A stretch of DNA of 36,437 nucleotides from Eubacterium sp. (GTDB taxonomy: Bacteria; Bacillota; Clostridia; Lachnospirales; Lachnospiraceae), in assembly GCA_022769325.1 (NCBI GenBank), contig JALEKC010000119.1, positions 1 through 36,437 of the forward strand. The letters run 5' to 3'. A model generated the notes under the pieces. It was not told where the DNA came from. It saw nothing but the letters and a program-made list of their open reading frames with translations, and ran no database searches. Below are positions 28,023 to 36,437 of this stretch, in pieces. Positions within the stretch are counted from its first letter, which is position 1. Each line of letters begins with the position of its first letter. Made by a program: the position numbers and the translations under genes.

Positions 28023-28844
28023 ATGCCTTGTATCTACGCCCATGATACTTTCGGAAAGAAAGTAGCCCGTCAATTGCCGGAAAACCTTCAACATATTATC
28101 AAACAATATCCGAAGGAATTTCGAATCGGTCTCCAGGGACCTGATTTTCTGTTTTTTTATCATCCATTATTCAAGCTTCGCACCAATCAGATTGGCTACT
28201 GGCAACACGGTCAGACCATGTCTGCATTCCTGAAAAGTTTACTTCCCTCTCTCAGGAAAAGAGGAACTGAGCACGGCACTTACGCGTATCTTCTTGGTTT
28301 TATCTGCCATTTCGCACTGGATAGTGAATGTCACAGCTATGTGATTCCCCAATCAGAACAGCCGGGATATAATCATCTTGTCATGGAAAATGAATTTGAC
28401 CGATATCTTCTCCGTAAGGATGGGTATCTGCCCATCACTTTTCCTATCTGGAAAATCATCCCCGACAGCAAAGAAATAAGCAAAGCAATCTATCATGCCT
28501 ATCGTCCCCTTCACGTATCCCAAAAGAAAATCCGACGGGCTTTGAAGGGAATGCGTTTTTATAAACGGCTTCTGACCTGTGGCTATTCCCTGAAACGTTT
28601 TCTCATCCGTCTGTTCATGAAAATCACATTCCACTATGCCGAACTGGAGGGGCATATGATGACATTAAAACCAAAAAAATATGCCGGTGAAACCAACCGC
28701 CATCTGCAGAAATGCTACAATAAAGCGCTTCCTCTGGCGGTCAATCTGATACAGGATTTCCACCTCAGCGCAACCACCGGGAAGTCTCTTGACGAAAGGT
28801 TTTCCACAACTTTCAAAAACAATCAGATAGAAAAAACAGAATGA
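28023..28844 (+). CDS. Zinc-dependent phospholipase C-like protein, no signal peptide
   Basis: A 273-residue protein resembling the helical zinc-dependent phospholipase C domain. Possible ligands: His in MPCIYAHDTFGKKVA, GPDFLFFYHPLF, the central LLGFICHFALDSECHSYV and MENEFDRYLL. The clostridial alpha-toxin has a signal peptide and a C2-like domain; this protein lacks both and is presumably cytoplasmic, where many Clostridia carry a copy of unknown role. Start supported by AAGGGG 9 nt upstream. It ends 7 bp from the convergent HD gene. Confidence 0.83.
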   Translation: MPCIYAHDTFGKKVARQLPENLQHIIKQYPKEFRIGLQGPDFLFFYHPLFKLRTNQIGYWQHGQTMSAFLKSLLPSLRKRGTEHGTYAYLLGFICHFALDSECHSYVIPQSEQPGYNHLVMENEFDRYLLRKDGYLPITFPIWKIIPDSKEISKAIYHAYRPLHVSQKKIRRALKGMRFYKRLLTCGYSLKRFLIRLFMKITFHYAELEGHMMTLKPKKYAGETNRHLQKCYNKALPLAVNLIQDFHLSATTGKSLDERFSTTFKNNQIEKTE

Positions 28845-28851
28845 GACAGCA

Positions 28852-29487
28852 CTACTTCATGTCCCCCAAATCTCTCTTATACTGGCGTAAAAATTCGTAA
28901 ACAAGATTCCGCTTTTCATGCCAGAATTGCTTTCCCGGTGCCGTCACAAATTCCATCTGTTTCATATGACGGTAAGTATATTTTTCGAAATGGCGGCACA
29001 CGGATTCAAAGGAAGGATCATCCTCCTTCGAGGCAATCCAGGAATCTAAAATAATGCCCATGGCGCCTGTATCATCAAGCATATCCGCTTCCATCAGCAC
29101 AACAAGTTCCAGAGGCGTCGTTTTTTCATGGAGCAGCCGCTTGTTGGGATGCTCTAAAATCAGATAACAGATGAAATCAATCTGGGCAGGGTCATAGGGA
29201 CGCCGTTCCAGATAATCTCTGCAAATGGCCGCACTTTCCTCCGCATGACGGTCATCACCCTGCACCGCATAACCCACATCATGAAAAATTGTAGCAATCT
29301 TTAATGCTTCCACGTCTAACGTATCATCCCTCAGTTGATTCACAATGCGAATCATCCATTTATAAACACGCACCGTATGAGCATAACGGTCATATGCAAT
29401 TTTGTTCTTACTCTTATCGCCCTTTTTGCGGTCATAGCTATACAGCATTTCCTCCACATACTGGAACATCTTGCGATGCTGTTTCAT
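28852..29487 (-). CDS. HD-domain hydrolase
   Basis: A 211-residue HD phosphohydrolase. Motifs: RYAHTVRVYKWMIRI (first His), IFHDVGYAVQGDDRHAEESA (HD and following His), ILEHPNKR (further His) and LMEADMLDD (Asp). That set of ligands suits a metal-dependent phosphatase or nucleotidase; substrate unknown. The ATG at 29487 has AAGGAG 7 nt upstream. It has its own promoter at 29523-29552 and no operon partner. Confidence 0.82.
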   Translation of the reverse strand: MKQHRKMFQYVEEMLYSYDRKKGDKSKNKIAYDRYAHTVRVYKWMIRIVNQLRDDTLDVEALKIATIFHDVGYAVQGDDRHAEESAAICRDYLERRPYDPAQIDFICYLILEHPNKRLLHEKTTPLELVVLMEADMLDDTGAMGIILDSWIASKEDDPSFESVCRHFEKYTYRHMKQMEFVTAPGKQFWHEKRNLVYEFLRQYKRDLGDMK

Positions 29488-29522
29488 TCTACTTCTCCTT
29501 TTTTGCGAAATCATCTTGCTGT

Positions 29523-29632: not shown

Positions 29633-31114
29633 TTACTCGATTTCCTCCATTTTGGTAATAATCCATGAATTGTTTATTTTCTCACAGGTGTACCGGTAAT
29701 TTTGGCGGATTAGCTTTTCCGGTGCCGTCGCATAGGCAACTTTAATAGTTTCATTGGAGTCCATTTCCACCATCTCCGGTGTAACATTCTTCATAGAAGT
29801 TACGGAACAGGACATTACTCTCTCACGGATTCCCCGTTTATAATAATTTTTAACCAACGCATACTGCTGCTGATACACCTCACTATCCCTGTCAAGAACC
29901 TGACTCAGCTTGCTTCCATCACCCGTATTAACAGCTTCGGTAAACACCTCTATGTAACGCTGAAAGGCCTTTTCACAAGTCTCTGCTCCCACAATTTTAG
30001 ACATTCCAAAAATCATGCTCTCTGACTCCGTCTGGAATTTCTGTGTATCGTATCCCCCGCTTTTTTGCTCTTTTGCCGACGGACCAATTCCCGCACTACA
30101 TGTAATTCCCACCGTGACCGCCACAACAATTACCAAAGGAACAGCCAGCCATTTCGGATATTTTTTACGGTTTCCAATTGCCCGGATTCTCTTTTCCATC
30201 TCTTTCCCCTGTCGGCTCATGGGCATCAGCGAATACCGGAACTCTCCGAATCGGGTCTCTGCCGCCATTCTCACTAACATTTCCCCATAAGAAAAGCGCT
30301 TTCTCTCGCCCAGGCGGGAGATTACGGACTCATCGCAGGCAAGCTCAGCATCCTTTTTGGAGCAAAATACTGCCAGCCACAAAAATGGATGGAACCAATA
30401 TACACATACCAAAAGAATACGAAACATTGCCCAAATATGATCACCATGTGAATAATGTACATACTCGTGGGTAATCATCTGTCCTAACTCTTCCTTATTC
30501 TCCTCTGCTAATGCTTTTGGCAGATAGATAGCCGGCCGGAACAGACCGTACAAACAAGGATTTTGTATTCCGGAAACAAAATAGATGGGAACGTTCTCCC
30601 TTTTTCCGTATAAAACCCGGCTTTTTTTCATCTTCCGCAATAAACTCATATTGGAAAAAGCAAACAGGCAAAATAATGCGCAAGACACGATGAACCATAG
30701 TAAATTTAGATGATTCATCCATCCGGATACCGGCTTTTGTACATCCGAAACATCCGATTGTGCCGACTCCGTCCGGTGATTAAATGTTACCTTCTCTTCC
30801 GAAACCACATTTTGAAATTCCGGTTCTGACTTCGGCAATGTAGAAGTTTGGGTTTCTTCTTCCGAAATTAAAGTCTCTGTACCCTGAGATATTCTATGCT
30901 CTTTAGACCAAGTCGACATCTTATCCGAGACAAGATTACCCACGCTGAAGGGTGTGGCAACAAAGTTTACAGGAACCAAAAAACGTACCAGCACAACAAA
31001 CCAGAGGGCATATATTGCCGTATATCGTATCTTTCCCATGAAAATTTTGCGGATACCAAAAATCAACAAAATAAGCAGTGATGACTCCAGCATCCATTCC
31101 AAAAAGCTCCCCAT
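29633..31114 (-). CDS. M56-family (BlaR1/MecR1-type) membrane sensor protease with non-PBP C-terminal domain
   Basis: A 493-residue integral-membrane zinc protease. About three helices and a long extracytoplasmic loop (60-132) precede the cytoplasmic protease: H216-E-x-x-H220 in MITHEYVHYSHGD and the third-ligand region KKDAELACDE (253-262). A further helix spans 323-342. The outer C-terminal domain (343-493) is about 150 residues and lacks the S-x-x-K and K-T-G of penicillin-binding sensors; it ends VAYATAPEKLIRQNYRYTC-EKINNSWIITKMEE, a pattern I associate with NTF2-like folds. It likely senses an envelope signal and inactivates the BlaI-like repressor. AAGGAG precedes the ATG; 8 nt gap to blaI-like. 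Confidence 0.87.
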   Translation of the reverse strand: MGSFLEWMLESSLLILLIFGIRKIFMGKIRYTAIYALWFVVLVRFLVPVNFVATPFSVGNLVSDKMSTWSKEHRISQGTETLISEEETQTSTLPKSEPEFQNVVSEEKVTFNHRTESAQSDVSDVQKPVSGWMNHLNLLWFIVSCALFCLFAFSNMSLLRKMKKSRVLYGKRENVPIYFVSGIQNPCLYGLFRPAIYLPKALAEENKEELGQMITHEYVHYSHGDHIWAMFRILLVCVYWFHPFLWLAVFCSKKDAELACDESVISRLGERKRFSYGEMLVRMAAETRFGEFRYSLMPMSRQGKEMEKRIRAIGNRKKYPKWLAVPLVIVVAVTVGITCSAGIGPSAKEQKSGGYDTQKFQTESESMIFGMSKIVGAETCEKAFQRYIEVFTEAVNTGDGSKLSQVLDRDSEVYQQQYALVKNYYKRGIRERVMSCSVTSMKNVTPEMVEMDSNETIKVAYATAPEKLIRQNYRYTCEKINNSWIITKMEEIE

Positions 31115-31122
31115 GATGCTCC

Positions 31123-31539
31123 TTATCTTCCTTTCTTACTTTCCTTTTCCGCTTTGTTTTCCGCTTCTTTCAAAATCTGTTGCAATTCCTGAATATCCTC
31201 TTTGGATAAATCATTCTGGCGAACAAGGGCACTCATCATCATTCCAACACTGCCATCATAAATACGTTTCAGGAAATCTCTTGTCTCCTGAACAACGACC
31301 TGCTCTTTCTTCACCTTCGGGAAAAAGAATTTCGTCTTGCCGTTCTCCTCATATCCAATCAAGCCCTTTTCTGTCATTCTCCGCACCATTGTTGCACAGG
31401 TACTCTTGCTCCAGCCTACCTGCTCTTTCAACAAAGGTACAAGCTGCATCAGTGAGCGAGGGCTTTCTTCCCATAAACAATTCATTAAATACCATTCACT
31501 ATTTGTTACACGAATTTCCTGTTTCTTATCTATCTCCAT
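31123..31539 (-). CDS. BlaI/MecI-family transcriptional repressor
   Basis: Winged-helix repressor of 138 aa, the usual length. The N-terminal VTNSEWYLMNCLWEESPRSL leads into the recognition helix WSKSTCATMVRRMTEKGLIGY, then the wing ENGKTKFFFPKVKKE and a C-terminal dimerisation region. The start at 31539 has GGAGG 8 nt upstream; the open frame before it runs through the operators and is not coding. It is expected to bind the 13-bp dyads at 31565-31675 and repress both its own operon and the divergent acyltransferase. Confidence 0.94.
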   Translation of the reverse strand: MEIDKKQEIRVTNSEWYLMNCLWEESPRSLMQLVPLLKEQVGWSKSTCATMVRRMTEKGLIGYEENGKTKFFFPKVKKEQVVVQETRDFLKRIYDGSVGMMMSALVRQNDLSKEDIQELQQILKEAENKAEKESKKGR

Positions 31540-31581
31540 TCCGGAGTCCTCCTTGACACTAAAATTTACTTTGTAAACCTC

Positions 31582-31610
31582 ATTATAAAGAGAAAAGTTT
31601 AGTTTGTCAA
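31582..31610 (-). promoter_or_regulatory. blaI-like promoter (perfect consensus)
   Basis: Minus strand TTGACA (31605-31610), 17 nt, TATAAT (31582-31587). Both hexamers and the spacing match the sigma-A consensus exactly, so strong basal activity held down by a repressor is expected. The -35 box is inside the operator at 31598-31610. Confidence 0.88.
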
Positions 31611-31629
31611 CCTTTTTTAAAAAATAGGG

Positions 31630-31659
31630 TTGACAAGTTAAACCCATCTGTCATATAAT
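31630..31659 (+). promoter_or_regulatory. Acyltransferase promoter
   Basis: TTGACA (31630-31635), 18 nt, TATAAT (31654-31659). The -35 box is inside the operator at 31630-31642, and the operator at 31663-31675 covers the expected transcription start. AAAGGAG and the ATG at 31700 follow. Confidence 0.87.
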
Positions 31660-31699
31660 CGGTTTACAAAGTAAAACGAGGAATGAAAGGAGTAAAAAA

Positions 31700-32653
31700 A
31701 TGAACAACAAACCACAGAAGCAAAAAGGACTGGATGCCCTTCGTGGGATGGGCATTATAGGAATTGTAATCTACCATCTGTTCCCAGCATTTTTACCGGG
31801 AGGTTTTCTTGGAGTGCCCTTGTTTTTTGTATTATCCGGGTATCTGATGTTTGTTACCAGTGAAACCAGCTGGCAAAAAGGGACTTTCCACATTCGAAGT
31901 TATTATAAGAAAAGAATACGGAAAATTATTCCCTCCCTTTTTACGATGGTTATGGTTATCTGCACGTATCTGACCCTGATTCAAAGCAGTCTGCTCACTG
32001 GTATTCGTCAGGAAATCTGTAGTATTTTCCTTGGCTATGAGAACTGGTGGCAGATTGGACAGAACGCTTCCTACTTTTCCCGGTTATCCGAAGCCTCCCC
32101 TTTTACCCATCTGTGGTTTCTGGCTGTGGAAATCCAATTCTATTTGCTATGGCCATTTGTGTTCCTGTTATACAAAAAAATGTGCCAGTTTTTTAATGGC
32201 AGAAAAATGTGTTTTCTCTTTCTTCTCCTGGCCTTGTTGTCCGCAGGAAGGATGTTCCTACTCCACACCCCCGGAGGTGACCCTTCCCGGGTTTATTATG
32301 GAACCGACACCATGGCATTCCCACTACTTATTGGAATTTTTCTCGGAGCACTCAGGGAACAGTATGACCGCCTATGCTTTTCCATTTCCAAAAAGGCATC
32401 TCTCATCCTGTTGGGCATTTTTGTATTGACGATTATCACCCTTTTCTTCACAGTGGATGGGCAGAATAACTTCCTCTACCCAGGTGGCATGTTCCTCATC
32501 AGCCTTCTCTTCGCTGTAATGATTCAGATGATTGTCAATCAGGAAGAAGACCTGGGCAATCTTTTAGAAAACACGGCACTTTCCTTTCTGGGGAAAAAGA
32601 GTTACGGCATCTACCTATGGCACTATCCCCTTATTATACTTGGATTACTATAA
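31700..32653 (+). CDS. Acyltransferase family 3 (OatA-like) membrane domain, shortened at the C-terminus
   Basis: Integral-membrane O-acyltransferase (317 aa) of the OatA/OafA type. The family signature R15-x10-H26 is in LDALRGMGIIGIVIYHLFP, followed by FLGVPLFFVLSGYLM, HLWFLAVEIQFYLLWP and the late GKKSYGIYLWHYPLIILGLL. It stops right after WHYP, where homologues usually continue for about 50-70 residues with two more helices. It would move acetyl groups across the membrane to peptidoglycan or another glycan. The start has AAAGGAG 7 nt upstream. The companion SGNH gene follows 42 nt later. It may be inactive as written. Confidence 0.88.
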   Translation: MNNKPQKQKGLDALRGMGIIGIVIYHLFPAFLPGGFLGVPLFFVLSGYLMFVTSETSWQKGTFHIRSYYKKRIRKIIPSLFTMVMVICTYLTLIQSSLLTGIRQEICSIFLGYENWWQIGQNASYFSRLSEASPFTHLWFLAVEIQFYLLWPFVFLLYKKMCQFFNGRKMCFLFLLLALLSAGRMFLLHTPGGDPSRVYYGTDTMAFPLLIGIFLGALREQYDRLCFSISKKASLILLGIFVLTIITLFFTVDGQNNFLYPGGMFLISLLFAVMIQMIVNQEEDLGNLLENTALSFLGKKSYGIYLWHYPLIILGLL

Positions 32654-32695
32654 AAATTTTATTGCGCGACAAGCACCTGCGGAATGGAGATTACT

Positions 32696-33376
32696 ATGAA
32701 AAAAATATGGAAAAAGATTAATAGAAAAGTAAAAATTGCAGTACTAATCTGCTGTACCATCATTGGTGGTTACGGAATATTGAAAGCTCCTGCTTCCGAC
32801 CAGTCTGAAATGGAACAGGAATTAAAAAACCGCGAACAGGAACTTATGCAGAAAGAAAGCCAGACAACCGCACCGAATCCGTCAGCGTCCCCGGAAACGG
32901 ATATGCAAAAAGAAAAAACGATATCGGTCATTGCCGATTCTGTGTTTCTGGGTGCCTCTTCCTCTTTCCAGAAATTGCAGCCAAATGCCGTAATTGATGC
33001 GAAAGTTTCCCGTCAGGTCCGTCATGGTCTGGATGTAGCCAAAAAGCTGGACAAAAAGGGAAAACTGGGAAATACCATCATCCTCTCTTTGGGGACGAAT
33101 TCTCCTTTTAATCCGGTGACCGGACAGGAGTTAATTGACTATCTGGGCACAGACCGCACCATTTACTGGGTTAATGCGTATGGGAAAAACCTTGAATTTC
33201 AGGAAGATGTGAACAAAACCATAAAAGATTTAGCCGACAAAAACGATAATGTCCATCTGATTTCCTGGGCAAAAGAAGCAAAAAAGCATCCTGGCTGGTT
33301 CTATCAGGATGGCACTCATCTGAACACCAAAGGCCAGGATGGCTTTGCAAAATTTATTTGGAAACAGATTTCGTAG
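32696..33376 (+). CDS. Membrane-anchored SGNH hydrolase domain (OatA C-terminal-like)
   Basis: A 226-residue protein with one N-terminal membrane helix (13-30), a Gln/Glu-rich coiled stretch (35-55), a Pro/Ser/Thr linker and an extracytoplasmic SGNH domain. Block I is IADSVFLGASS (S82, with Ala where GDS has Gly), then LSLGTNSPF (N135) and QDGTHLNTKG (D205, H208), the expected triad. It matches the extracellular transferase half of OatA, which places O-acetyl on peptidoglycan. The ATG at 32696 has GGAG 6 nt upstream. It probably works with the preceding membrane domain; both seem to come from one gene. It ends 23 nt inside the convergent surface-protein gene. Confidence 0.83.
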   Translation: MKKIWKKINRKVKIAVLICCTIIGGYGILKAPASDQSEMEQELKNREQELMQKESQTTAPNPSASPETDMQKEKTISVIADSVFLGASSSFQKLQPNAVIDAKVSRQVRHGLDVAKKLDKKGKLGNTIILSLGTNSPFNPVTGQELIDYLGTDRTIYWVNAYGKNLEFQEDVNKTIKDLADKNDNVHLISWAKEAKKHPGWFYQDGTHLNTKGQDGFAKFIWKQIS

Positions 33377-36300
33377 TTTTCTTTGCGCCAATTTCTTTCA
33401 AATAAGACATATCTGTCCTGACTCCCTTTTGAGTCACGCGCAGAACTACATAATATTGATCAATCACACCACCATTGGCAACGGTAATGGTAATGCGTGT
33501 ATTCCCCGCACGCTTTCCCCGAACAATTCCATCTTTAGATACTGTTGCCACTTTTTTGTTTGAACTCCGGAACGTAATTTTGGCATTTTTTATGTGGGTC
33601 ATTTTTACTTTCCATTTTTTCCCCTTCTCTAATTTTTTATAGAGAGCGATGGATGGTGCCTCTTTGTATTTTGTCTTAAATTTGCTAAGGCTATAATTTT
33701 TCTTTACGTTTTTTACAACTTTAATCTGTGCTACATATTGCACAATATGCTTTCCTTTGATAATCGTAACGACAATCTTCGCCTTACCGGTTTTCTTTTT
33801 GGAAGTTATCACGCCCTTTTTATTAACTGTGGCAACCGATGGATTCGAACTGGCAATATGAATTGCCGCCCCTTTCAAATTCACCATCTTCAGCTGAAAT
33901 TTCTTCTTTTTTCCCATGGTTTTTGACATACTGATTGTGGGAATATAATACTCCATTGTGGCAGAGTCAATCTCAATATTCGCAATTGGGCTGGAATTTT
34001 TATCTCCTGTCGCAGAAAAACGAATTCCTAATTTCCCGGTTCCCAGTCCCGTAATCTGATTGCCTTTACATGGAATCCACGTTTTTCCACCATCGACTGA
34101 ATATTCCATCGCCGCATTAACCCCGATGACCTTTCCATCAAATGAATTCTCATATTTGGGTGGAATAACCGTCAGTTTGCTGGCATCCGGCTTTTTTTGT
34201 TCCTGCTTTTTCACCACAACACCAGCCGCTTCCACAACAATATCTCCCACAATACTTTCGGCGGGAATTGTCAAAACTCCGGTGACACCATTATAACCAT
34301 AATCCACACCCGGCTCCAAAATTTTATTTCCTGATTTCACAACAAAGCTTGCCGGGAGAGAATAATTCGTGTCCGGCACCAGAGTGGCCTCATAATCACT
34401 ATTTTCCACCGCTTTATTGCTTCCTTTTGCCGTCAAATTGGTTAACCGGAAAGACACATAAAATTCTTTTGCCGGAACAACAACAGGAATTGCATCTGCC
34501 TGAATCGTCACATCACCGGTTATTTCCCCTTTGAAAATACAAATTTCCCCAGTGATTGCATCATAGGAATATCCTGCAGAAGACAATTCATTTCCGCCTA
34601 CTTTTATCACAATCGATTGGGGAAGATAGTAACCTTCCTGCGATGCTATTTTCCCCTGATACTTCTGTTCTACCGTTCCGGTTGCTTCTCCCTGAAAACT
34701 TAGATTCCCCAGTTCTGCATGAATCGGATAATGCTTGGCAACTCCCTTTGCCATGACTGTTACATTTCCCCGTATTACATTTTTAGAAATCACCAAACTT
34801 CCCGTCTGGGAATCATAGGTGTACCCATTGGTTTCCTCACCATCAATCATGACACGGACTGACTCTGGCAAATCATAATTGCTTTTTTCCCGAATTGTTG
34901 CAGAATAATCTTCCAGCATATTGCAGGAATCCGCCCCATCAAAAGTAAGGTTTTCCATTTGTGATGAAACGGAATAAAAAATCTTCTGTGCCTCTCCACG
35001 GATTGTGATATCACCACGTATAATACCGCCATCAATCCATATTGCTCCGGTTTCGCTGTTATATTCATAATTTTCCGGCAGAACAGACTGCCTGTCAACC
35101 AGAACACTCACCTGCGTCGGCAGCCGGTAACCAAAATCCGCCGCCAGAGTGGCTGAATAATCGCAATCTGCCATACAGATGTTATCTCCGTTCACCTCAC
35201 CATGGGAAACTTCGTCCTTGACAGCATACTTCTGGGCTTGTGCCGTGACGGTAATATAAACATCATCGATAATGTCCTCTCCCTCAATATGAATGGCTCC
35301 TGTTCCCGAATCAAAAGAGAAACCGGCTGGCGTATTTTGTGGGTTCCCCTCGGAATCGGTATCAACTCCCAGCGCAGCACTCACACCCGAAATAATGTAT
35401 CCCTTCTCCAAAGTAAGAACACTATCATAATCCTGACCATAGGATATCTGTGCATTCACTGCCCCACCAGAGACACAATCTATATTTGTGCTGTAATAGA
35501 CATGAAAATCCCCTGTCTTAGCCTGTATCACTATATCATTTCCCAACAACTGTTTTGACACAACCAGTTCGTTGGAAGAATAGGAAATCGTACCATTCAA
35601 AACCCTCTTTGTAATTCCATGGCTGATTTTATATTCATTGTCATCAATAAGAACTGTCACACTATCCGGCATCGGTAAGGTACCGGGAGTTGAAGCCAGA
35701 TTTACAACTAAATCCGAATCATCATAAGTGGACACACTTGTTATAGGGTTTTCACCAGCCGTCATACATGTTAGCTGATAGGTTACCTTCGCCGTATCCG
35801 CATGGAAGTAAATATTTCCTGTAACACATTCCTTTTTCACTTCAACGGTACCCGTGGATGAATCATAGGTATAATCGGTACCTTCTTCTAACGTTGTCAG
35901 CGTAACCGGATTTCCCCCAGCATCTCTCACGACTCCATTGGCATCTGTCGTTGTCCCCGTCGTCAAGGAATCTGTTTGAACCATAATCTTTTTAGGAAGT
36001 TCATATCCTTCATCCGCCATCAGCTTTGTGCTATACGCTTTTCCGGGTGTTACGGTATTGACCCCTATGGTGCCAGAGTAACAAAATAAATGATCTCCGG
36101 ACACTCCCTGCGAATTATCTGTGCCATTAAAATAGCTGTTATAAGATGAGGAAACAGCAAAGGTTGTCCGGGCAGAAACCCCCTCTGCATAACTCACACT
36201 CACCACATAATCCCCGGTGGGCCACGTCTCTGCACCCTGAATCATAATTCGTTTATCTGGCAGAATTTCAGTAGAGCCGTTCGGTTTCCTTATGGAATAA

Positions 36301-36437
36301 ACAGGATTACTTGTATTAATTGACATCGTATCATCAATCAGCAATTCCAGACTCTCGTCTCCAAGCCGGGAAATATTAATCTTATCCACCTGAAGTCCCT
36401 GATAAGTCACCATACATTTTGCCGTGGCGTGTTCGGT
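33354..36437 (-). CDS. Large repeat-containing surface-type protein with Ig-like (Big_2) C-terminus, 5'-partial
   Basis: The frame runs open to the window edge (the last in-window residues before MVTYQG read TEHATAKC), so the start lies outside; over 1,020 residues are visible. About seven units of 75-100 residues recur, each with DYxATL...YxLPxxVxV, a YxYDxxTGxIxI strand and GDITIxAxA; examples start near HAELGNLSFQG and SFRLTNLTAKG. A segment with MEYSVDGGKTWIPCKGNQ follows, then two Ig-like Big_2-type domains (SSNPSVATVNKKGVITSKKK, SSNKKVATVSKDGIVRGKRA). The end is basic (GAKKTTKSVSK) with no LPXTG or membrane anchor. Probably extracellular; role unknown. Confidence 0.82.
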   Translation of the reverse strand, partial: TEHATAKCMVTYQGLQVDKINISRLGDESLELLIDDTMSINTSNPVYSIRKPNGSTEILPDKRIMIQGAETWPTGDYVVSVSYAEGVSARTTFAVSSSYNSYFNGTDNSQGVSGDHLFCYSGTIGVNTVTPGKAYSTKLMADEGYELPKKIMVQTDSLTTGTTTDANGVVRDAGGNPVTLTTLEEGTDYTYDSSTGTVEVKKECVTGNIYFHADTAKVTYQLTCMTAGENPITSVSTYDDSDLVVNLASTPGTLPMPDSVTVLIDDNEYKISHGITKRVLNGTISYSSNELVVSKQLLGNDIVIQAKTGDFHVYYSTNIDCVSGGAVNAQISYGQDYDSVLTLEKGYIISGVSAALGVDTDSEGNPQNTPAGFSFDSGTGAIHIEGEDIIDDVYITVTAQAQKYAVKDEVSHGEVNGDNICMADCDYSATLAADFGYRLPTQVSVLVDRQSVLPENYEYNSETGAIWIDGGIIRGDITIRGEAQKIFYSVSSQMENLTFDGADSCNMLEDYSATIREKSNYDLPESVRVMIDGEETNGYTYDSQTGSLVISKNVIRGNVTVMAKGVAKHYPIHAELGNLSFQGEATGTVEQKYQGKIASQEGYYLPQSIVIKVGGNELSSAGYSYDAITGEICIFKGEITGDVTIQADAIPVVVPAKEFYVSFRLTNLTAKGSNKAVENSDYEATLVPDTNYSLPASFVVKSGNKILEPGVDYGYNGVTGVLTIPAESIVGDIVVEAAGVVVKKQEQKKPDASKLTVIPPKYENSFDGKVIGVNAAMEYSVDGGKTWIPCKGNQITGLGTGKLGIRFSATGDKNSSPIANIEIDSATMEYYIPTISMSKTMGKKKKFQLKMVNLKGAAIHIASSNPSVATVNKKGVITSKKKTGKAKIVVTIIKGKHIVQYVAQIKVVKNVKKNYSLSKFKTKYKEAPSIALYKKLEKGKKWKVKMTHIKNAKITFRSSNKKVATVSKDGIVRGKRAGNTRITITVANGGVIDQYYVVLRVTQKGVRTDMSYLKEIGAKKTTKSVSK

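Follow-up and report, generated by a model that had tools for sequence, protein, structure and literature searches.

Pairs of BlaI-type repressors and M56 metalloproteases are common in Clostridia and, to our knowledge, the sensed signal and the targets of most of them have not been established. Here we describe one such pair in a stretch of Eubacterium sp. DNA of 36,437 nucleotides (contig JALEKC010000119.1, the whole of which is called the window), together with the region separating it from a divergent acyltransferase operon. This region, 31565-31675, is probably the divergent operator of two BlaI-clade modules that control cell wall O-acetylation through an M56 relay. The system is a variant of BlaI/BlaR1, and its interesting part lies outside 31565-31675, in an NTF2-like receptor and an OatA-type output. 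With the staphylococcal and Bacillus bla and mec divergons it shares the repressor family, the tandem M56 gene, predicted autoregulation, a divergent target, and dyads placed over the promoters. It differs from them in a gap of 3 base pairs (bp) between operator half-sites where theirs is 4, in an NTF2-like domain in place of the penicillin sensor, and in an O-acetyltransferase target instead of blaZ or mecA.

Other described systems resemble it in part. The BlaI system reported in Clostridium thermocellum also has a tiny regulon, two inverted-repeat pairs per target (room for four protomers), autoregulation, and BlaR1 genes in the operon, but its half-site is GTCTAT with a 5-nucleotide gap; the targets reported are its own operons and hypothetical proteins, with no O-acetyltransferase among them (PMC8457756). 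CopY of Streptococcus pneumoniae likewise has two operators, one proposed to lie on the -35 box and one to block the polymerase, whereas its operator, RNYKACANNYGTMRNY, has a 4-bp gap, its trigger is copper and its target is copper export (PMC7253601). In SigV-RsiV of Bacillus subtilis a membrane receptor also uses proteolysis to pass on a wall insult, and oatA is switched on, with a sigma/anti-sigma factor pair in place of the repressor and M56 protease found here (PMC4183432). OatA itself combines an Acyl_transf_3 membrane part with an SGNH catalytic part; here the two are split into two genes, and the substrate is putative. Finally, TcaA of Staphylococcus aureus, from whose family PF22819 derives, changes the wall, and serum and teicoplanin induce it; it is not fused to a protease, and its likeness to the M56 receptor lies in this domain (PMC10328498). 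Among the papers listed in searches of the open PMC literature, none was seen to link BlaI/M56 to an O-acetyltransferase or to describe an NTF2-like M56 receptor, and the search on NTF2 and TcaA gave no paper; this is weak evidence of absence, because subscription papers were outside the scope.

The operator region contains the following elements, the promoters being predicted from the sequence.

31565-31577, unstranded: start-site dyad of the blaI promoter, TTTACTTTGTAAA, TTTAC-TTT-GTAAA; reads GGTTTACAAAGTAAA on the minus strand over 31565-31579
31582-31610, minus strand: predicted blaI-M56 promoter, -35 TTGACA at 31610-31605, -10 TATAAT at 31587-31582, spacer 17
31598-31610, unstranded: -35 dyad of the blaI promoter, with TTGACA inside, TTTAGTTTGTCAA; GGTTGACAAACTAAAC on the minus strand
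31630-31642, unstranded: -35 dyad of the acyltransferase promoter, with TTGACA inside, TTGACAAGTTAAA; GGTTGACAAGTTAAAC
31630-31659, plus strand: predicted acyltransferase-SGNH promoter, -35 TTGACA at 31630-31635, -10 TATAAT at 31654-31659, spacer 18
31663-31675, unstranded: start-site dyad of the acyltransferase promoter, TTTACAAAGTAAA, TTTAC-AAA-GTAAA

The original prediction described four 13-bp dyads here, and its coordinates and letters proved exact; the dyads start at 31565, 31598, 31630 and 31663. The outer two are exact reverse complements. Both promoters are present, TTGACA-17-TATAAT on the minus strand toward blaI and TTGACA-18-TATAAT on the plus strand toward the acyltransferase, and the inner dyads contain both TTGACA boxes. 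The dyad centres (31571, 31604, 31636 and 31669) are spaced at 33/32/33 bp. The mirror-image operator of four sites is therefore real in the window, but as a regular array it is not conserved and we judge it incidental: in nine divergent loci the distance between the inner centres is 32 (window), 33, 59, 61, 62, 69, 73, 107 and 177, and because this spacing varies the 33/32/33 array was rejected as a functional unit. The conserved unit is instead a two-site promoter module, GGTTGACAnnnTAAAC-(-10)-GGTTTACAAAGTAAA, which occurs twice, back to back, in the window.

Among 39 loci found to encode BlaI relatives, 19 (61-88% identity) were used as orthologs, while L037 (40%) and L039-L057 (28-33%) were set aside, except that L037 and five of L039-L057 were included in the BlaI alignment. 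Genomes G012 and G305, apparently one genome, were counted once. At blaI promoters the -35 dyad was accepted with up to 2 mismatches to GGTTKACANNKTAAAC and the start-site dyad with up to 3 to GGTTTACANNGTAAAC; the blaI promoter of L127 was read by eye. By these thresholds the -35 dyad is present in all 20 blaI promoters (the window and 19/19 close orthologs) and the start-site dyad in 16 of the 20, with 32-34 bp from dyad to dyad. In genomes with this BlaI, 18 acyltransferase-SGNH operons were examined, and every one of them is likewise preceded by both dyads, with up to 3 mismatches in the -35 dyad and at most 2 in the start-site dyad. The motif thus recurs in orthologous intergenic regions, on which the original prediction had staked itself. 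Eleven of the 18 operons are adjacent and divergent to blaI (window, L021, L025, L028, L029, L030, L031, L036, L038, G127 and G289), three are on the blaI locus in another arrangement (L024, L027 and L032), and four are distant, those of G001, G002 and G004 on another contig and that of G008 on C3, apparently the contig of L026, some 91 kb away. Spacing at these promoters is 32-33 bp, save in G002 and G004, where it is 40 bp. The distant operons are the strongest evidence, since they show the module tracking the target operon and not the locus. Beyond the hexamers, the dyad letters (TAAAC on the 3' side of TTGACA, GG ahead of it, and GGTTTAC..GTAAA past the -10) mostly carry 1.3-2.0 bits of conservation, and the stretch between the dyads mostly under 0.7 bits. 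Since the start-site dyad is lost at some blaI promoters but kept at all 18 targets, we infer that the target promoter is tightly shut and the regulator under looser control.

Pairs of dyads and single dyads behave differently against chance expectation. When TTTACNNNGTAAA was searched at up to 2 mismatches, the window gave 27 matches against 22.76 expected (standard deviation 4.96), a count reached by 23 of 100 shuffles; across its own genome the 13-mer dyad at up to 1 mismatch gave 146 matches against 316 for the reversed-pattern control. The inner dyads are themselves 2-mismatch matches to TTTACNNNGTAAA and share letters with the -35 boxes. The single 13-mer was consequently rejected as a regulon finder, being not enriched and having matches at C26:14425 (L004) and on C90 (L008) that lack the module. 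In contrast, when the 250 bases upstream were dinucleotide-shuffled 2000 times, neither window module was ever reached, and in all 11 regions put to this test the count for the observed pair was 0/2000. Such pairing of dyads on a single promoter is not chance. The module was not found in the upstream stretches of the paralogous BlaI genes of the same genome (L001 and L003), the stretch taken for L001 possibly not being its true upstream side.

The module also follows this BlaI clade. A strict module pattern matched 16 of 19 ortholog genomes (missing G008, G011 and G014) and 4 of 397 family genomes, with no match for the reversed control in either set; the same 4 of the 397 are those in which a BlaI of at least 71% identity occurs. 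A relaxed pattern, run on 23 genome entries (22 distinct), returned 32 rows that reduce to 30 distinct matches, 12 at blaI, 16 at the acyltransferase operon and 2 at lipoprotein genes, again with none for the reversed control. Of the 397 family genomes, 22 encode acyltransferase homologs (E ≤ 1e-40), and the 4 of these with this BlaI carry the module. At 19 homolog loci (34-44% identical) in the 18 family genomes without it, no pair was found, the best candidates having 10-13 mismatches of 32. Many of these control acyltransferases are fused to a second domain, and strand is uncertain for L160 and L161. Because they are more distant, these controls tie the module to this BlaI but do not show its loss from a like operon.

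The two lipoprotein-like genes preceded by the two-site module, L108 (G010:C48:20057) and L097 (G006:C2:52821), have no Pfam or NCBIfam match. On C48 of G010 several related genes stand in a row after the gene at the module. Such genes are possible lineage-specific members of the regulon.

The operator is flanked by the two gene pairs listed here.

29633-31114, minus strand: BlaR1-like M56 membrane metalloprotease, 493 residues, PF05569 E 1e-45; starts 8 bases after blaI
31123-31539, minus strand: BlaI/MecI-family repressor, 138 residues, PF03965 E 1.6e-27, 96.5 bits against a cut-off of 22.6
31700-32653, plus strand: membrane acyltransferase, Acyl_transf_3, 317 residues, PF01757 E 6.1e-31, 108.1 bits against a cut-off of 31
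32684-33376, plus strand: membrane-anchored SGNH acetyltransferase-like protein, 230 residues, counterpart of the OatA C-terminal catalytic domain

The product of 31123-31539 has the Penicillinase_R domain with winged helix that defines the BlaI/MecI family, and the profile of its family finds MecI (1okr, E 3.5e-26) as well as a penicillinase repressor of known structure (1sd4, E 1.6e-20). Dyads at its own gene, at the frequencies given above, predict autoregulation. It is the probable binder of the dyads, as had been proposed; comparison strongly supports this, the module being conserved at blaI and the targets and co-occurring with this BlaI. The recognition helix STCATMVRRM is kept in 12 aligned rows of at least 61% identity and replaced in distant rows, and more distant BlaI proteins have other upstream motifs along with different recognition-helix residues.

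The proposal that the dyads are of the TACA/TGTA type did not hold, as the half-site gap here is 3 bp and not 4. Gaps of 2-6 were scored after orienting loci by tblastn, L130 being masked and left out. All 5 loci of this clade that could be read (L124-L128) scored highest with a 3-bp gap, and the classical TACA/TGTA operator with 4 bp between TAC and GTA was not found among them. In sister loci (38-53% identity) the 4-bp gap, in the TACANNTGTA register, beat the 3-bp gap in 17 of 18 and tied in one, and was strictly best of all in 12. We know of no earlier description of a 3-bp operator gap in the BlaI family. The gap of 5 nucleotides in the C. thermocellum BlaI_0696 operator (PMC8457756) indicates that this distance varies within the family. 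The sister BlaI genes (L129, L131-L147) have GTTGACANNTGTNNAC-type sites, likewise around the -35 box, and the more distant ones (L039-L057, 28-33%) have, as read by eye, TTCTACTGCAGTAGAA-like palindromes that lie in pairs on a promoter with TTGACA.

The blaI and M56 genes stand in tandem in the window and in 19 orthologs. The M56 protein has the protease domain of the BlaR1/MecR1 receptors, with an HExxH zinc motif (H216, E217, H220) invariant in 17/17 aligned proteins, but not their C-terminal class D beta-lactamase-like sensor. In its place, residues 380-490 match the NTF2-like domain TcaA_5th (PF22819, E 3.7e-12). Both PF05569 and PF22819 match all 17 proteins and M48 matches one; no other family, and no penicillin-sensor domain, was found in the 17 at E ≤ 0.001. 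The NCBIfam model blaR1_generic scores 99.4 bits where 400 are required, and the match spans no more than positions 5-344 of the 585 in the profile. The predicted structure has a mean pLDDT (predicted local distance difference test) of 66.2, rising to about 80-90 over residues 381-493, and matches BlaR1 (8exq, E 7.4e-7) as well as the NTF2-like domains of PARC6 (E 7.7e-6), ARC6 and RsgI9; judging from aligned length, the former match would fall on the protease part and the latter on the C-terminal domain.

The receptor type and the target operon go together, the operon being present in 16 of 17 genomes with the NTF2-type M56 and in none of 3 with another M56 outer region (L033-L035, of which L033 was the one run against Pfam). 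In these three loci BlaI is 61-63% identical and the operator module is the same, but the M56 outer region is unrelated and the genome has no acyltransferase homolog. Sensor and output thus seem to change together. At L028 (7999-12170) and L029 (8091-10709) the first pair is immediately followed by additional M56 genes, whose products are 24-27% identical to that of the window, and at L029 by a second BlaI (30%) as well.

The acyltransferase appears to be the membrane half of a split OatA-type enzyme. It has the Acyl_transf_3 domain, and its partner an OatA-type SGNH domain with Ser and Asp-x-x-His; this partner matches OatA, its catalytic part being close to that of S. aureus OatA, and Pfam gave no hit for it at E ≤ 0.001, while its GDSL matches are weak (E 0.0014 and 0.01) and fall short of their cut-offs. 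Unlike in OatA the two domains are in separate genes, as they also are in the linked orthologs holding both.

On these grounds we propose a mechanism, in which DNA binding, repression, proteolysis, signal and acetylated substrate are predicted. Repressor dimers (31123-31539) would bind both dyads of each module, one around the -35 box and the other some three helical turns farther downstream, where transcription starts, keeping polymerase off the blaI-M56 operon and the divergent acyltransferase-SGNH operon. The M56 protease would sense an extracytoplasmic signal through its NTF2-like domain and cleave BlaI, so that both promoters open at once. The split enzyme would then O-acetylate peptidoglycan or another wall glycan. 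Wall acetylation is known to protect against lysozyme, and here it may guard against lysozyme-like hydrolases or autolysins. The logic originally suggested, one repressor occluding -35 and start site together, is also what the authors proposed for CopY as two-site polymerase occlusion, and they stated that it had been proposed for BlaI as well (PMC7253601). Direct cleavage of BlaI is known from S. aureus BlaR1 (PMC9834060).

Several observations weigh against control of wall acetylation through this operator. Four blaI promoters (L024, L026, L031 and L032) have lost the start-site dyad (5-7 mismatches). Of two other orthologs, one (G127) matches the -35 dyad at blaI poorly, with 3 mismatches, and the other (G289) was without a start-site dyad when the sequence upstream of blaI was read by eye; G048 (BlaI 62-64% identical) shows one dyad only. 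The dyads are 40 bp apart in two distant targets (G002 and G004), single dyads are not enriched in the window or in its own genome, and the match at C26:14425 is another exact 13-mer with no module around it. G011 escaped both the strict and relaxed patterns, although L029 shows its modules once mismatches are allowed, and in G005, which has the NTF2-type M56 and the module, the target operon was not found. Finally, the residues that align by eye with the Asn-Phe cleavage site of S. aureus BlaI (PMC9834060) are Ala-Leu here.

Four other explanations were considered. The enzyme pair might acetylate another surface glycan, such as teichoic acid or exopolysaccharide, and the switch would then concern surface chemistry, not lysozyme resistance; we regard this as rather unlikely. 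Alternatively, the same repressor and sites could answer to a beta-lactam or to released wall fragments, with the acetyltransferase as an ancillary resistance function. The BlaI/M56 architecture is that of the classical bla and mec systems, a peptidoglycan fragment has been tied to induction of beta-lactam resistance in Bacillus licheniformis (PMC3305447), and the C. thermocellum BlaI regulons were interpreted as beta-lactam responses (PMC8457756). Against such a signal stand the failure to find a penicillin-sensor region in the 17 M56 proteins, the low blaR1_generic score, and the fact that no beta-lactamase was seen adjoining the module, and we consider it unlikely. It is more doubtful still that BlaI and the dyads regulate both operons while a small ligand, for example a muropeptide, frees BlaI, the M56 protein not being the relay and its NTF2-like domain serving otherwise. 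Metal control of CopY, a BlaI relative (PMC7253601), and the non-conserved cleavage-site residues speak for it, and the constant blaI-M56 tandem and the invariant M56 catalytic motif speak against it. That the dyads reflect chance or shared-promoter likeness, which similar TTGACA boxes, common AT-rich palindromes, single-dyad counts at or under expectation and the overlap of inner sites with -35 boxes might suggest, is highly improbable and already contradicted by the conservation of dyad letters outside the hexamers relative to the intervening stretch, by the pairs on distant target operons, and by the shuffles.

Two further parts of the window adjoin the system. Directly after the SGNH gene, 33354-36413 on the opposite strand encodes a 1019-residue protein with a Big_2 domain; as this reading frame starts 24 bases from the end of the window, which is also the contig end, its true start may lie beyond. 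On the other side, beside the M56 gene, 28023-29514 contains HD-domain and zinc phospholipase C-like genes, and among the 20 loci the same two are near blaI-M56 in L038 only.

The preferred reading, control of wall O-acetylation by a BlaI clade through an M56 relay, concerns a clade whose two-site promoter code is defined and whose predicted regulon is small and can be recovered from genomes; its receptor has an outer domain that is not a penicillin sensor, and the predicted output, modification of the wall, is concrete. Tentatively, and well short of what we would call likely, a BlaR1-type protease may have been rewired in gut Lachnospiraceae to sense damage to peptidoglycan or lysozyme from the host, the NTF2-like domain detecting the insult and M56 cleaving BlaI, with BlaI sites shifted by one base and peptidoglycan O-acetylation as output, making it an independently evolved counterpart of SigV-RsiV-oatA. 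If true, the control of wall O-acetylation described here would connect peptidoglycan O-acetylation in commensals with a signalling architecture known from antibiotic resistance. The system would also serve as a natural experiment in which the tolerance of a repressor family for operator spacing altered by one base can be studied.
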